This document shows, in pieces, positions 38,854 through 59,261 of a stretch of 64,000 nt of DNA (the first letter of the stretch is position 1; each line of letters begins with the position of its first letter). A program made the translations under genes and the position numbers. Source of the DNA: Azoarcus sp. (GTDB lineage: Bacteria > Pseudomonadota > Gammaproteobacteria > Burkholderiales > Rhodocyclaceae); assembly GCA_030604735.1 (NCBI GenBank), contig JAUVVG010000004.1, forward strand, positions 1 through 64,000. Reading direction: 5' to 3'. The notes under the pieces are model-generated. The model had not been told where the DNA came from and searched no databases. It saw only the letters and a program-made list of their open reading frames with translations.

Positions 38854-39687
38854 ATGATCCAACAGCAGATTCCTGACCTTCCGGGCAGCCACGCATTGCG
38901 TCGACCTTCGGATTTCGCTTTTCGGTGCCGCGAGGCGCTTCGTTTTGTCGCCGCGATGGCATCAAGTCGCGATGGCAGGCGCATCATTGTCGCGCATGTC
39001 GTCAATGCGACTTTGCTTGCCGGCATGTTGGTGATCGCGTTGGTGCTTGCCTTGTTCGGTTTGTTCGAGGGCTTGACCCTGAGACGACGCACGCTGGTGC
39101 TGAGTTTCAGTGCGCTGGTCGTCGGGTCTGCGCTGCTGCCCTTGCTGACTATGCCTTTCTTCTCGTTCAAGGACGTTTTCGATCGCTGTATCCACAAACT
39201 GACGCGTCGTCGACTCTTCGTCAGCCTGAGCAAACACGTGTTCTATCGTCCGACCCGGGACGGGGGCTTGTCATTGCATCTGGCCAAGGCCCACGCTCTG
39301 CTCGCCGAGAAATATCAGCTGGTCAGCGCAGAGCCTGTGGGCCGAATCGGCAACACCAGCCGTCTTCTCGGGATGTCGCTCGCGCGTTCGATTCGTGACG
39401 CGGTCAGGCGCTCGCGGCGCCTGGTCTTGCGCGGCTGGCTCAGGCCCGAGCAGCGGATCACCGGGGCGACCTACGGTTATCTGTTCGGTACCGCGGGCAG
39501 CAAACTGCGCCTGAAGCGTTGCCAGCCGCCATGGTGGTCGCGCATATTCAGCTCCGTGTTCTACCGCTATGGCGCGCTGCACGCGGTATTCATGTACTTC
39601 ATCATTCATGACAAGCTCCCAGCGTCGTTCGACCCGGTGTATTTCATCGCTCAGGTCGGCGATCTGGTTGGCGACAAGGTCGCCTGA
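38854..39687 (+). CDS. Orphan membrane protein of unknown function
   Basis: A 277-residue protein that I do not recognise. Two strong helices lie at about 48-72 and 80-102, after a basic N-terminus (LRRPSDFAFRCREALRF). A third short hydrophobic stretch is near 245-255 (YGALHAVFMYFIIHD). The soluble 110-235 segment is basic (RRSRRLVLRGWLRPEQR) and includes TRDGGLSLHLAKAHALL. Base usage is like its neighbours. The ATG at 38854 has a weak, distant GGAG. Its partners are unknown: fumC is divergent, and the diguanylate cyclase begins 228 bp downstream. Confidence 0.72.
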   Translation: MIQQQIPDLPGSHALRRPSDFAFRCREALRFVAAMASSRDGRRIIVAHVVNATLLAGMLVIALVLALFGLFEGLTLRRRTLVLSFSALVVGSALLPLLTMPFFSFKDVFDRCIHKLTRRRLFVSLSKHVFYRPTRDGGLSLHLAKAHALLAEKYQLVSAEPVGRIGNTSRLLGMSLARSIRDAVRRSRRLVLRGWLRPEQRITGATYGYLFGTAGSKLRLKRCQPPWWSRIFSSVFYRYGALHAVFMYFIIHDKLPASFDPVYFIAQVGDLVGDKVA

Positions 39688-39864: not shown

Positions 39865-39880
39865 TGGACAACTTTGTCCA
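39865..39880. promoter_or_regulatory. Perfect palindrome in the leader of the haem-type diguanylate cyclase
   Basis: TGGACAA and TTGTCCA face each other across CT, 35 bases before the ATG at 39916. The sequence and place fit a small operator, or a hairpin near the ribosome site. No regulator is encoded next to it. Confidence 0.35.
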
Positions 39881-39915: not shown

Positions 39916-41787
39916 ATGAGCATGAGCCTGAATCGCAAGCTGGTATTACTGTTCGCGGGACTGATGGCCGGGGTGCTGGCCATGGTCGTACTGGTGATCC
40001 TGTTCGCTTTTCGAAGTTACTCGGTGGCGTCCTCGACCGCCCATGTCAAGACGGCCGCCGAAATGGTCAGGGTGCATCTGACCGAATCGATGATACAGGG
40101 CACGATCCATGATCGTGCGCAGTTCCTGAAGCGGCTCGAAGAGGTCGATGGGCTGCTCAGCGCGCGGGTGATCCGCTCCCATCATGTCAATGATCAATAC
40201 GGCGGCAGCGGGCTGGACGAGATGCCGGCCGACAATCTGGATCGCATGGTGCTGGCTGACGGACGCGAGCGCTTCGTGGTGAATGACGAATGGGGTGCGG
40301 CCGTTTTTCGCGGGACCATTCCGTTTCCGGCCACCAGCAGTGGGTCGCCAAACTGCATGCAGTGCCATCAGGTACCCGAAGGTACGGTGCTGGGCGCGGT
40401 CACGTTGGAGGTGTCGATCAGCGAACTCAAGAATCAGGCCTTGATCACGGTCGCGACGATCGCGTTGGTGTTGGCCGCCTTCTCGGTGCTCGCGATTCTT
40501 GCGCTGAAACGGCTGATCCGTCCGGTCGGGGAAACCGCGCATGCGGTCGAGGTGGCCGTCACCCGAGCGATGGCCGGTGATTTCAAGGGTCGCCTGGAAA
40601 GCAGGACCAACGACGACATCGGCAAGATCGCGCTGCAGATGAACAGTCTGATGGACTTTCTCGATGGTGGGCTGTCCCGTATCAACCAGCGCGCTGCGCA
40701 ATTGACCCAGCGCCAGCCTCGCCAGGACGAGAACCAGCTCGAGGTCACCATCGATCTGGTCAATGGTTTGGCCGATGCGGCAAGCTTCAAGCAGGCCATC
40801 GAGGAAGACGAGCACAAGGCCGAGATCTACGACCGTTTCGGGCGCATCCTGTCCGAACGTCTGGGCTTGAGCCACTACTCGATTTATGAAACCGACGGAC
40901 AGAAGCAGCTGATCCCCATCATGGTCGACGGCGTCCCGCAGGGGGCGTGCAAATGGTGCGATGAGCAGATTCTCGCCCGCAACGACTTGTGTCGCGCGAA
41001 GCGGACCGGGCATGCGGTGGATGGGCTGACCCACCCCGGGATCTGCTACGCGTTCCAGCCGCCCTCGGGGGAGACCGCGGGCTACCGGCATTACTGCCTG
41101 CCTGTGATGCAGCAAGGTGGGGTCGGCAGCATCATCCAGTTGGTGACCGATGCCGAAGACGCGGCCCGGCTGGAAGAGCAGATTCCCTATGTGCGGGTGT
41201 TCGCTCGGGAAATGGCGCCGGTGCTGGAGGCCAAGCGATTGACGGAAACCCTGCGCGAGTCGGCCTTGCGCGACCCGATGACCGGTCTGAACAACCGCCG
41301 TTATCTCGAGGAGTATGTCGATACGCTGATTTCGGCGGCGCGGCGTCGCAAGTCATCGATGGCCTTGCTCTTGCTCGACCTGGATTACTTCAAGGTGGTC
41401 AATGACACCTACGGGCATGATGCCGGTGATACGGTGCTGAAGTCGCTCGCGACGACGCTCAGGAATTCGGTTCGGGCCTCCGACATGGTGATCCGTTTCG
41501 GCGGCGAGGAGTTTCTGATCGTGCTGCAGGATACCGAGGCCGGGGGTGCCGCCCAGGTATCCGAAAACATCCGCGCTGCGGTCGAGGCCTTGAAGATCAA
41601 CATAGGCAGCGAAATCCTGCAGAAGACGATCTCGATCGGATTCGCGATGTTCCCTGAAGACAGCGAGACCTTCTGGCAGATCGTGAAATTCGCAGATGTC
41701 GCGCTCTACCGGGCCAAGCATGATGGCCGCAACCGGGTAGTGCGTTTCAACCGAGAGATGTGGGAAGAAGGCAACACGAACTACTGA
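39916..41787 (+). CDS. Diguanylate cyclase with periplasmic haem c motif and cysteine-rich GAF-like domain
   Basis: Makes cyclic di-GMP from two GTP. It has 623 residues from ATG 39916 (a TTG at 39874 is less likely). TM1 is about 6-28. The periplasmic sensor at 30-174 contains CMQCH (Cys147, Cys150, His151), a canonical c-type haem attachment site. TM2 is 175-197, followed by a HAMP region. A GAF-like domain (about 290-440) carries Cys345, Cys348, Cys359 and Cys377. The GGDEF domain has an active GGEEF at 529-533 and a product-inhibition I-site RASD (520-523). I infer redox, oxygen or NO sensing by the haem, with a metal or Fe-S site in the inner domain. Confidence 0.88.
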   Translation: MSMSLNRKLVLLFAGLMAGVLAMVVLVILFAFRSYSVASSTAHVKTAAEMVRVHLTESMIQGTIHDRAQFLKRLEEVDGLLSARVIRSHHVNDQYGGSGLDEMPADNLDRMVLADGRERFVVNDEWGAAVFRGTIPFPATSSGSPNCMQCHQVPEGTVLGAVTLEVSISELKNQALITVATIALVLAAFSVLAILALKRLIRPVGETAHAVEVAVTRAMAGDFKGRLESRTNDDIGKIALQMNSLMDFLDGGLSRINQRAAQLTQRQPRQDENQLEVTIDLVNGLADAASFKQAIEEDEHKAEIYDRFGRILSERLGLSHYSIYETDGQKQLIPIMVDGVPQGACKWCDEQILARNDLCRAKRTGHAVDGLTHPGICYAFQPPSGETAGYRHYCLPVMQQGGVGSIIQLVTDAEDAARLEEQIPYVRVFAREMAPVLEAKRLTETLRESALRDPMTGLNNRRYLEEYVDTLISAARRRKSSMALLLLDLDYFKVVNDTYGHDAGDTVLKSLATTLRNSVRASDMVIRFGGEEFLIVLQDTEAGGAAQVSENIRAAVEALKINIGSEILQKTISIGFAMFPEDSETFWQIVKFADVALYRAKHDGRNRVVRFNREMWEEGNTNY

Positions 41788-56178: not shown

Positions 56179-57519
56179 ATGTCAGCAGTCCAGAGTCAGT
56201 CAGAAGCGGATTCCACCGCCCAGTTCGTCGCCTGGGTGCGCGGCGCCGCGCCGTATGTCCACGCTTTTCGTGGCAAGACCTTCGTGATCGCCTTCGGTGG
56301 CGAGGTGGCCGGCGGCGATCGTGCCCAGAAGCTGGCCTATGACTGCAACCTGCTGGCAGCACTCGGCATCAGGCTGGTCCTGGTGCATGGCGCAAGGCCG
56401 CAGATCGAGGACGAGATGGCCCGTCGCGGCCTCGAACCGCGCTATCACCATGGTCTCAGGGTCACCGATGCGGCCGCGCTCGAATGCGTCAAGGCTGCGA
56501 TGGCCGTGACCCGGCTGGAGGTCGAGGCCTTGCTGTCGCAGGGTTTGCCGAACACCCCGATGGCGGGGAGCTACATGCGGGTCACCGGTGGCAATTTCAT
56601 CACCGCACGACCAGTCGGGGTGGTCGAGGGCGTCGACTTCCAGTTCACCGGTGCCGTGCGCAAGATCATCGCCGACGAGATCAAGGCCGACCTGGATCAG
56701 CAAAATGTGGTGCTGATTTCTCCGCTGGGGGTGTCGCCGGCAGGCGAGATCTTCAACCTAAGCATGGAGGACGTCGCCGAGGCGGTCGCGGTGGCGCTGC
56801 GCGCCGAGAAGCTGATCTACCTGTGCGATGCGCCGGGTTTGCTGGACGAGACTGGTCACCTGATCGATTCGGTCACTGCCGATGAGGCGGAGCGCATGTT
56901 CGAAGCCAATCAGGGGCTGACCGAGGATCTTCACCTGTACCTGCCTTGCGCGGTGCGTGCGGTGCGCCGGGGCGTGGCGCGCGCCCACCTGATCGACCAT
57001 GACAAGGACGGCGGCTTGTTGCTGGAGTTCTTCACCCATGCGGGGGTCGGGACCGTCGTGTCGCGCGATCCGCTGTTCCGTTTCCGTGAAGCCTCGTTCG
57101 AGGATGTCGCGGCGCTGGTCGCGCTGATCACGCCGATGGAAATGGACGGCACGCTGGTACGGCGCGGTCGTGAGCTGCTCGAACAGGAGATCGAGCGTTT
57201 CACCCTGGTCGAGCATGACGGGGTGCTGGTCGGCTGCGCCGCACTGTATCCGTTCAGCGACGAACGCGCCGCTGAACTGGCCTGTCTCGCGGTCACGCCC
57301 GAATACAGGCGGGCGGGGCTGGGTGACCACTTGCTCAAGCGCATCGAGCAGCGCGCCCGCATGCAGCGGCTCGAGCGCTTGTTCGTGCTGACGACCCGCA
57401 CCGCGCACTGGTTCCGCGAGCGCGGGTTCAACGAAACCGGGCCCGAGGCGCTGCCCAGGCAGAAGCGGGAGTTGTACAACTTCCAGCGCCGCTCCAAGGT
57501 GTTCGTCAAGAACTTATGA
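56179..57519 (+). CDS. argA: N-acetylglutamate synthase
   Basis: First step of arginine synthesis, acetylating glutamate with acetyl-CoA. It has 446 residues, the classical ArgA layout. The amino-acid-kinase domain (about 25-290; IAFGGEVAGGDRAQK, RLVLVHGARPQIE) binds arginine for feedback control. The GNAT acetyltransferase domain (about 300-440) has LACLAVTPEYRRAGLGDHLL as acetyl-CoA loop. The stop overlaps the diguanylate cyclase start by four bases (ATGA). Confidence 0.96.
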   Translation: MSAVQSQSEADSTAQFVAWVRGAAPYVHAFRGKTFVIAFGGEVAGGDRAQKLAYDCNLLAALGIRLVLVHGARPQIEDEMARRGLEPRYHHGLRVTDAAALECVKAAMAVTRLEVEALLSQGLPNTPMAGSYMRVTGGNFITARPVGVVEGVDFQFTGAVRKIIADEIKADLDQQNVVLISPLGVSPAGEIFNLSMEDVAEAVAVALRAEKLIYLCDAPGLLDETGHLIDSVTADEAERMFEANQGLTEDLHLYLPCAVRAVRRGVARAHLIDHDKDGGLLLEFFTHAGVGTVVSRDPLFRFREASFEDVAALVALITPMEMDGTLVRRGRELLEQEIERFTLVEHDGVLVGCAALYPFSDERAAELACLAVTPEYRRAGLGDHLLKRIEQRARMQRLERLFVLTTRTAHWFRERGFNETGPEALPRQKRELYNFQRRSKVFVKNL

Positions 57520-59261
57520 GCGACGTGCCCCGCCCCTCGTCGCAACAACGGTCGCTTCGTCGGGAAACGGAGAGGCGACCGGATGACGGGATAGGGGTGT
57601 CGGTGCTGGTGGGCGTGCTGGTCGCATTGGCCTGTTTCGTGGCCGGGCTGCTGGCGTTTCGTTTTGGTGGTGGAGAGCTCTGGGCGCTCGCACTCGCCGC
57701 GGTCGCGCTGGTCGGGCTTCCGGCCACCGTGCTGACCGTTTTGCATGTGCGCAGTCGCGCCTGCCTCCGAACGCTCTACTCGGATGCCTTGTCGAGGCGG
57801 CTGGACGAACTCGATTCGGCAATGATTGTCCGCAACCCCATGGCCGAGCCGGCATCGGCCGAGATGCTCGAACGCATCGATGCAGCGGTACGCCAGGCCG
57901 AGTTGCTGAGGGAGATTGCAGACGGTGTGCACGGGGTCGAGGCGATGTTCGATCTCGATGGACGGCTGATCTGGATCAGCCCGTCGGTGCAATCCTTCAC
58001 CGGTCGCTCCCCTGCGGAATGCATGGAAGCACCCGATCCGTTGGCGCTGTTGGTGCATGACTCCGATCTCGGCTATTGCCGACGGGTGGTCAAGCGGGTG
58101 GTCGAGCAGGGTGATCTCGAGTCTTTCGAGATGCGGCTGAAGGACCGCGACGCTCAGGTGTGTTGGGTCGCATGCCGCTGGCGCCGCGTGATCCAGGTTG
58201 GTCGCGTGTTCGGTCTGCGGATGTCGGCCGAGAATGTGCAGGAACGCAAGGAAACCGAATACAAGTTGCTCGAGACAGTCGCCGAGCTGCGCCGATCGCA
58301 GGCGCTGCGGGAGCATTATCTGTCGCGCAGCAACGACGAGCGGATGCGTTTGACCGCTCTGCTGAACGTGATAAGACTCGGTATCCTGTTCATGGATCGC
58401 GACCACCGGGTGTTGTACTTCAATCGCGCGATGCTGGATATCTGGGGCTTCGCGCCCGATGAGAACCTGATCGGTCTTCGCGACGTGGTGTTGCAGAGTC
58501 GGGTCGCGCCGCTGCTCGAAGAGCCGGAGGTGTACTTCCGCAGTATCCAGAACGTCGTCGTGTCCGGGCGAGACGATACGTCGCGCGAGATCCGCTTCAA
58601 GGATGGCCGGGTCGTGACCGATGCTTCGGCCATCGTCGAAGGCGGACCGGACAACCGCGGCATCGGTCGGGTCTGGATCTACGAGGATGTCACCGAGCAG
58701 CGCCGAATCGGTGAGCGCCTGATCCAGCTCGCCGAGCGGGATCCCCTGACAGATTTGTTCAATCGCAGGCGTTTTCACGAGGAACTCGACCGCTTGCTGG
58801 CCGATGCCGAACGGCGCCAGTACGATGTCGGCCTGGTGATCTTCGACCTGGATGGGTTCAAGCCGATCAACGACGATTTCGGTCATCAGGCCGGTGACGA
58901 GGTGCTGGTGACGATGAGCCGCGAGGTCGGCAGCATCATCCGTCGCAACGAGACTTTTTTCAGATTGGGGGGAGACGAGTTCGCGGTGTTGGTGCCGGAT
59001 GCGGACGAATCCGGACTGCTGGAACTGGCAAAGCGTATCGTCGAGGGCGTGGCGGGTCTGCGTTTCCGTTTCGACGGCAGGGAAGCGCGCCTGACGGCAA
59101 GTCTGGGCATCGCGCGCTATCCACGCAACGCCCGCGATGCCGAGCGGCTGATCGCGGCGGCGGATCATGCCATGTACCAATCCAAGGCGCAGGGACGCAA
59201 TCGATGGACGATCGCGCCGAACGGTCAGGACGAATCCGATAGAATGTCGTCTGAAGACTGA
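57516..59261 (+). CDS. Membrane-anchored PAS-PAS-GGDEF diguanylate cyclase
   Basis: A 581-residue c-di-GMP synthase. Two N-terminal helices (about 30-48 and 50-75) are followed by two PAS domains (about 140-250, with [15 protein letters not shown], and 285-405, with [19 protein letters not shown]) and a GGDEF domain with intact GGDEF at 485-489. The usual inhibitory RxxD five residues before it is RRNE (476-479), so product inhibition may be weak. ATG 57516 overlaps the argA stop, an unexpected coupling of a biosynthetic enzyme with a signalling enzyme. The PAS ligands are unknown. Confidence 0.92.

Follow-up and report, generated by a model that had tools for sequence, protein, structure and literature searches.

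A predicted transmembrane diguanylate cyclase of Azoarcus with a haem c-type periplasmic Cache sensor and a conserved tetra-cysteine GAF-like domain

The DNA analysed here is a stretch of 64,000 nucleotides from an Azoarcus sp. (assembly GCA_030604735.1, contig JAUVVG010000004.1, positions 1 to 64,000 of the forward strand), referred to as a whole as the window. The open reading frame (ORF) at 39916–41787 on its forward strand encodes a protein of 623 residues, predicted to be a transmembrane diguanylate cyclase. We propose, with a probability of roughly 0.6, that this is an inner-membrane enzyme with two stacked sensors, i.e. a c-type haem on the outside responding to nitric oxide (NO) or redox state, and a cysteine-ligated metal in a GAF domain on the inside. 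The outer half is a haem-c Cache sensor of an already described kind (GSU0935/Tll0287, "sCache_heme"), with predicted haem attachment, and is known from chemoreceptors, kinases and GGDEF/EAL proteins; the fresh part is the inner half, a GAF-like domain with a conserved site of four cysteines that is apparently undescribed. The enzymes of cyclic di-GMP (c-di-GMP) exceed the known signals in number, with 48 GGDEF matches in this genome alone, and the co-occurrence of the tetra-cysteine GAF-like domain and a haem-c-type sensor, seen in 93 of the clade's 97 cyclases, makes a testable case of two-compartment redox control. The cyclase may act as a single switch that integrates two redox or gas signals.

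Hydropathy identifies two hydrophobic stretches, at residues ~9–31 (transmembrane helix 1, 39940–40008) and ~174–198 (transmembrane helix 2, 40435–40509), both with estimated ends. The loop between them contains the haem c attachment motif CMQCH (Cys147, Cys150 and His151; residues 147–151, 40354–40368) and constitutes the predicted periplasmic haem-c Cache-type sensor domain (residues 32–173, 40009–40434). On the cytoplasmic side follow a HAMP-like linker (residues ~199–250, 40510–40665), a GAF-like domain (residues ~283–440, 40762–41235) and a GGDEF diguanylate cyclase domain (residues 450–607, 41263–41736; PF00990, E-value 8.8e-50). The linker matches Pfam HAMP at 214–247 with an E-value of 0.15, i.e. 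under the cut-off, and 12 of 18 family members match at E-values up to 10, the best being 6.7e-5. The active-site motif GGEEF (residues 529–533, 41500–41514) is kept in 95 of the 97 homologues described below and replaced by GGEEI in the other two, and Arg520 and Asp523 of the I-site RASD (residues 520–523, 41473–41484) are kept in all 97. The protein thus carries both the GG[DE]EF and the RxxD motif of diguanylate cyclases, and c-di-GMP synthesis is predicted. An earlier reading of this gene from the letters of the DNA (the sequence-only reading) had given the same ORF, the same position of CMQCH between two membrane helices and an intact output domain, all of which were confirmed. An ATG at 39922 agrees with the start of the nearest homologue (L009), and a TTG at 39874 is an alternative start.

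Homologues were first collected by a pattern-seeded scan of genome contigs, which kept 80 loci. Of these, 17 (L009–L025) are near-full-length relatives. Their sources include Azoarcus, Aromatoleum, Thauera, Pseudothauera, Zoogloeaceae and Gallionella, together with Sulfurimonas and Sulfurospirillum, whose proteins are ~31% identical; the remaining 63 matched in the GGDEF part, some extending slightly beyond. Because two of the six patterns covered the Cys motifs, which biases the set towards proteins that keep the cysteines, whole genomes were then searched by a whole-protein profile. Within the same order, 12 full-length matches were found in 11 of 200 genomes. Across the phylum, with at most three matches scored per genome, 68 of 398 sampled genomes gave a match at an E-value of 1e-75 or below, 88 matches in total, some of them of the GAF-GGDEF part only. 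Eighty of these were fetched, four were already in the set (the cyclase of the window, L117, L118 and G020, which is L103) and four were left out (G294:C14, a GAF-GGDEF match, and G378, G397 and G393, whose matches begin or stop close to a contig end or at it). The aligned set of 120 proteins falls into four groups: 97 have the sensor (79 came from the genome searches, 18 from the pattern-seeded scan together with the window), 14 align from residue 165 or later only, eight are GAF-GGDEF proteins with a trio of cysteines (Cys-trio) and one has an HD domain; the Cys-trio and HD-domain proteins were kept apart from the clade counts. Profiles were built from 13 of the 18 homologues (A1), 10 of the 18 (A2, the four-Cys GAF profile), eight Tll0287-like sequences from 12 loci (A4, omitting L122, L124, L126 and L130) and seven of the eight Cys-trio proteins (A5, omitting L108).

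Haem c on the periplasmic domain is a well supported prediction, based on the conservation of CxxCH, a methionine at the place of Met60 of GSU0935, the Cache-type model and the presence of CcmE in the same genome. CxxCH is present in 97/97 homologues with an aligned sensor, a set that was picked by this motif; all clade rows without CxxCH begin to match at residue 165 or later, so that no aligned sensor lacks it. At the position of Met59 (40090–40092), the proposed distal haem ligand, the 97 homologues have Met in 91, Phe in three, Thr and Val in one each, and a gap in one. The best AlphaFold2 model of residues 30–175, made with 13 rows, has a predicted local distance difference test score (pLDDT) of 84.6 and a predicted template modelling score (pTM) of 0.80. 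Its elements follow the order H-H-E-H-H-E-E-[CxxCH helix]-E-H, so the model is a Cache fold in which CxxCH sits on a short helix of its own before the last strand. In a Foldseek comparison with the PDB the best match of this model is the haem-c sensor of GSU0935 (3b42_B, E-value 1e-6), followed by WalK and CitA-type domains. VIA-align gives Tll0287 (5b82) a Z-score of 10.0, with a root-mean-square deviation (rmsd) of 3.8 over 122 aligned residues; entries of GSU0935 and GSU0582 are not among the 50 VIA-align matches listed, which does not decide against them. In a profile comparison with the eight Tll0287-like sequences, hhalign reports 94.5% and an E-value of 7.4e-8 over 63 columns, compared with 0.3% and 0.21 for a GAF control. 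A profile search of the PDB with the sensor missed both GSU0935 and Tll0287, which the fold comparison recovered. Cytochromes c3 and c7, matched around CxxCH in PDB sequence searches (best E-values 0.044 and 0.0039) beside unrelated weak matches, were rejected as relatives, since the similarity is that of the motif only.

Among known proteins, the Geobacter methyl-accepting chemotaxis proteins (MCPs) GSU0935 and GSU0582 (3b42, 3b47) resemble the cyclase in having a periplasmic Cache/PAS-like domain between two transmembrane helices with a single CxxCH, and Met60/His144 of GSU0935 occupy the same relative places as Met59/His151 of the cyclase. In the oxidised crystal of GSU0935 one haem is ligated by His144 and water and the other by His144/Met60, and a redox-linked ligand switch has been proposed (PMC8396549). 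The two MCPs differ from the cyclase in their output, and the passages on them in PMC8396549 mention no GAF tetra-Cys site. A recent preprint (Deshpande et al. 2026, PMC12889525) describes sCache_heme, i.e. the DUF3365/Tll0287-like family PF11845, as a Cache domain with a CxxCH helix inserted before the last strand, fused to histidine kinases, MCPs and GGDEF/EAL proteins, and proposes NO sensing. The model of the cyclase shares the Cache fold and the CxxCH-bearing helix preceding the last strand, whereas the cyclase has no PF11845 match, its loop between CxxCH and the strand has fewer residues than the loops of the Tll0287-like sequences compared, and its candidate distal ligand is Met rather than the Cys of Tll0287 (Cys/His). 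GSU2622, listed in PMC8396549 as a Geobacter haem-c protein with HAMP, GAF and HD-GYP domains, would likewise unite a c-type haem motif with HAMP and GAF domains in a signalling protein of the c-di-GMP type, albeit with HD-GYP instead of GGDEF as output. No such CxxCH/GGDEF protein is the subject of the excerpts from PMC5513912 and PMC2628731.

Within the order, the sensor profile finds matches at E-values of 1e-8 or below in 33 of 200 genomes. Thirty sensor loci were read, 29 from this search (about one per genome) and one further locus (L092), and CxxCH and the Met are present in every one. As judged by simple motifs, ten of the loci encode MCPs and 19 encode proteins with a GGDEF motif; in the remaining one no output was recognised within the piece covered. 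Since 19 of the 30 carry a GGDEF motif, a GGDEF protein with this haem-c-type sensor is ordinary, and the cyclase clade is one branch among them, with ten of the 19; the Cys-GAF profile matches those ten only. The pair of redox sites, which the sequence-only reading had called unusual, is the usual state of this clade, and haem-c Cache domains on GGDEF/EAL proteins are both published (PMC12889525) and found here; what stands of that claim is the four-Cys GAF, which searches of open-licence papers did not find described in a c-di-GMP enzyme, although Cys-rich GAF-GGDEF proteins without a haem sensor exist. The locus L092 (G000:C87:41736–42161, reverse strand) is an MCP of the same genome with the same haem-c Cache sensor (CIVCH, E-value 8.2e-32). 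In another genome of the order the sensor is joined to an HD-domain output (HD_5, HD-GYP-like; L115, G014:C54:106500–108500). The Azoarcus genome also encodes a separate Tll0287-like (PF11845) domain at G000:C44:4170–4655 (E-value 3.8e-21), in an open frame of 522 residues.

The cyclase has seven cysteines, the two of CMQCH and Cys345, Cys348, Cys359, Cys377 and Cys394. The sequence-only reading had suggested a cytoplasmic zinc or iron–sulphur (Fe-S) site formed by Cys345, Cys348, Cys359 and Cys377. These residues are present and a tetra-Cys site is supported, but its ligands differ from those named: Cys345 (40948–40950), the first Cys of CKWC, is not conserved (57/97) and had been counted in, whereas Cys394 (41095–41097), present in 97/97, had been overlooked. 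Cys348 (40957–40959) is found in 93 of the 97 homologues, and Cys359 (40990–40992) and Cys377 (41044–41046) in all. Cys348, Cys359, Cys377 and Cys394 occur jointly in 93/97, versus 56/97 for the four named earlier, which were therefore rejected as the site. The spacing in the 93 proteins is nearly fixed, with C-x10-C in 93/93, then x17 in 91 and x19 in two, followed by x11 to x20. Elsewhere in the 97 proteins Cys makes up 172 of 53,640 residues (0.32%), so that about 0.2 Cys would be expected in residues 338–400; at least four are observed there in all 97, which places the clustering above chance. The 14 relatives without the haem sensor keep Cys348, Cys359, Cys377 and Cys394 in 14/14 and Cys345 in 3/14, and the fourth cysteine, Cys348, is thus found in 107 of 111 clade proteins. 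Within this clade it is usual, not exceptional, for a protein to have both sites. Eleven clade proteins match from residue 274 onward only. The five of them whose N-termini were read (L201, L204, L207, L208 and L211) are tetra-Cys GAF-GGDEF proteins with, by eye, another, Cache-2-like periplasmic domain without CxxCH, so that the inner module seems to be exchanged between sensors. The four proteins without Cys348 (L022–L025, from Sulfurimonas and Sulfurospirillum) each still have at least four Cys in 338–400, and further Cys in the vicinity give the impression of a rewired site.

Residues 283–440 have no direct Pfam match, and the tentative GAF assignment is based on profile comparison with the Cys-trio GAF-GGDEF proteins. 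The profile of this region aligns with A5 (hhalign 92%, E-value 5.9e-7) with Cys359, Cys377 and Cys394 in register, a search of the genome with A5 retrieves the same stretch of the cyclase (E-value 3.0e-4), and Pfam GAF families are hit above the cut-off by each of the three A5 members that were scanned. A further weak A5 match, at G000:C57 (E-value 2.2e-7), was set aside, being by eye a GAF-containing transporter-like frame. The Cys-trio proteins share with the cyclase the three aligned cysteines, in motifs of the type CWALR-like ... CxH ... CxP, and the order GAF then GGDEF; among the eight read, all three Cys are present in 8/8, and both Cys348 and the haem motif are absent in 8/8. These figures are not a census, because the proteins were chosen as high-scoring profile matches. 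They are L114 of the same genome (G000:C94:23000–26000), L108–L113 and L116, from several genomes, and many further partial matches of the order-wide profile search span the Cys-trio stretch. The Cys-trio GAF may represent an undescribed class of thiol- or metal-binding GAF domains, and the existence of such relatives hints that GAF sensors dependent on a metal or on thiols form a wider class. Another GAF-GGDEF diguanylate cyclase, Dcsbis (PA2771, 4zmu), takes ranks 2 and 3 in Foldseek for the full-length cyclase model, and is not among the PDB matches of the Cys-trio GAF profile.

Signalling proteins with iron in their sensory domain, a possibility for the cyclase, include AirS, Hik2/CSK and NorR. 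The cluster domain of AirS is a GAF domain. AirS binds [2Fe-2S] on C-x7-C-x-C-x17-C in its sensory domain, NorR has in its GAF domain a mononuclear iron with Cys113 among the ligands for sensing NO (both PMC4601167), and the kinase CSK/Hik2 has a [3Fe-4S] cluster with a conserved Cys in a GAF domain (PMC6949291). These three, likened to the cyclase by description alone, are not c-di-GMP enzymes and have different spacing or ligands. Among the titles and abstract beginnings returned by searches of open-licence literature, none describes an enzyme of c-di-GMP whose GAF domain has an Fe-S, zinc or tetra-Cys site, which does not prove absence. In the main text of a review of c-di-GMP signals (PMC8846402) the terms "iron-sulfur" and "Fe-S" do not occur, and the nearest metal-binding example is the zinc-binding CZB domain. 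The inner site of the cyclase probably binds a metal, Fe-S or zinc; by sequence these are indistinguishable from each other and from a thiol switch, and Fe-S is slightly preferred over zinc.

In the mechanism that we propose, the Ccm system would attach one haem c to CMQCH, with His151 as proximal and probably Met59 as distal ligand. A redox change of the haem or binding of NO, plausibly produced by the candidate cd1-type nitrite reductase of the genome, would displace Met59 as proposed for GSU0935, shifting the helices that continue into the two transmembrane helices, and the signal would pass on through the HAMP-like linker. A metal centre on Cys348, Cys359, Cys377 and Cys394 of the GAF domain, either a redox-active Fe-S cluster or zinc, would add a cytoplasmic signal and gate the linker helix to GGDEF, and hence the pairing of two GGDEF domains, which would make c-di-GMP under product inhibition via RASD. 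The analysis establishes the domain order, how well both sites and the catalytic and I-site residues are conserved, a predicted Cache fold resembling that of haem-c sensors, and how widely the architecture occurs; haem attachment, ligation by Met, NO or redox as the signal, metal binding and the direction of regulation are inferred.

Several results weigh against this proposal. On the haem side, the hhalign alignment with Tll0287-like sequences spans only 63 columns around CxxCH, and Pfam PF11845 gives no match at E-values up to 10 for the cyclase, with matches in 4 of 18 members (best E-value 0.012). The other four of the five AlphaFold2 sensor models have pLDDT values of 69.8–74.9, and the full-length model has a pLDDT of 80.7 and a pTM of 0.47, with residues 143–149 below 50. 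The fold is Cache-like in general, as WalK/YycG (5is1) comes first in VIA-align with a Z-score of 12.9, above Tll0287. Superposition on 3b42 gives a template modelling score of 0.48–0.53 and an rmsd of 13.9, perhaps due to the domain-swapped dimer that 3b42 forms (PMC8396549). On the GAF side, Cys348 is missing in 4/97; the A2 profile found in the genome the cyclase itself and one match at 0.06, without retrieving the Cys-trio protein of that genome; and among five alignments read of the seven PDB sequences matched by the Cys-trio profile, none has all three core Cys, one of them (3oov) having a Cys at the first place. Finally, no link to an NO or redox enzyme is seen among the neighbours in the window; a comparison of ten homologous loci by eye, a weak test on longest frames of which several are antisense, showed no shared redox operon.

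The alternatives concern the haem or the inner site. That the periplasmic haem senses redox potential only, and not NO, is a serious possibility, though one we would not put at even odds: a review treats GSU0582 and GSU0935 as sensors in which the haem spin state is linked to redox, their midpoints being -156 and -251 mV (PMC8396549). However, NO binds both Geobacter sensors, and NO and CO displace Met60 of reduced GSU0935 (PMC8396549); a signalling-type sCache_heme binds NO and releases it slowly (PMC12889525); and the genome encodes a candidate cd1-type (NirS-like) nitrite reductase, named from PF02239 and a CxxCH near its N-terminus.

A structural zinc on the four GAF cysteines, which would leave the periplasmic haem as the sole signal, is somewhat unlikely. 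Four conserved Cys at near-fixed spacing suit Zn(Cys)4, as do the other Cys found nearby where Cys348 is lost; the three-Cys version without Cys348 in 8/8 relatives, a high-scoring and non-random sample, fits a partly open metal or ligand site better than a pure Zn(Cys)4. Equally doubtful is the bolder version of our proposal, in which haem c (reading NO or potential) and a GAF Fe-S cluster (reading cytoplasmic O2, NO or redox) would form a coincidence gate across the membrane, and the protein would stand for many Cys-ligated metal-binding GAF domains of c-di-GMP enzymes, a large class so far undescribed. The GAF cysteines of the free-methionine-sulfoxide-reductase type provide a model for a metal-free switch in the GAF pocket that works by thiol/disulfide chemistry or by reaction with a ligand, and the three-Cys core common to another GAF group lies in the second half of the domain, which we take to be the ligand pocket; such a switch is unlikely, as the fourth Cys in 107/111 proteins, and the other Cys near the site in those lacking it, speak for coordination by four ligands. 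That CMQCH is a chance motif without haem is very improbable, short as CxxCH is by itself, in view of its 97/97 and 30/30 conservation, on which a chance CxxCH was rejected, the Cache fold with a CxxCH helix and the presence of CcmE.

The neighbours of the cyclase gene in the window encode fumarase C, an ORF without Pfam match, a gamma-glutamylcyclotransferase-like protein and a class II aldolase. Upstream of the cyclase lies an ORF of 277 residues (38854–39687, forward strand) without a Pfam match at an E-value of 0.001. A second GGDEF protein of 581 residues, with a GGDEF motif and by eye a PAS-like middle part, is encoded in the window at 57516–59261 on the forward strand.

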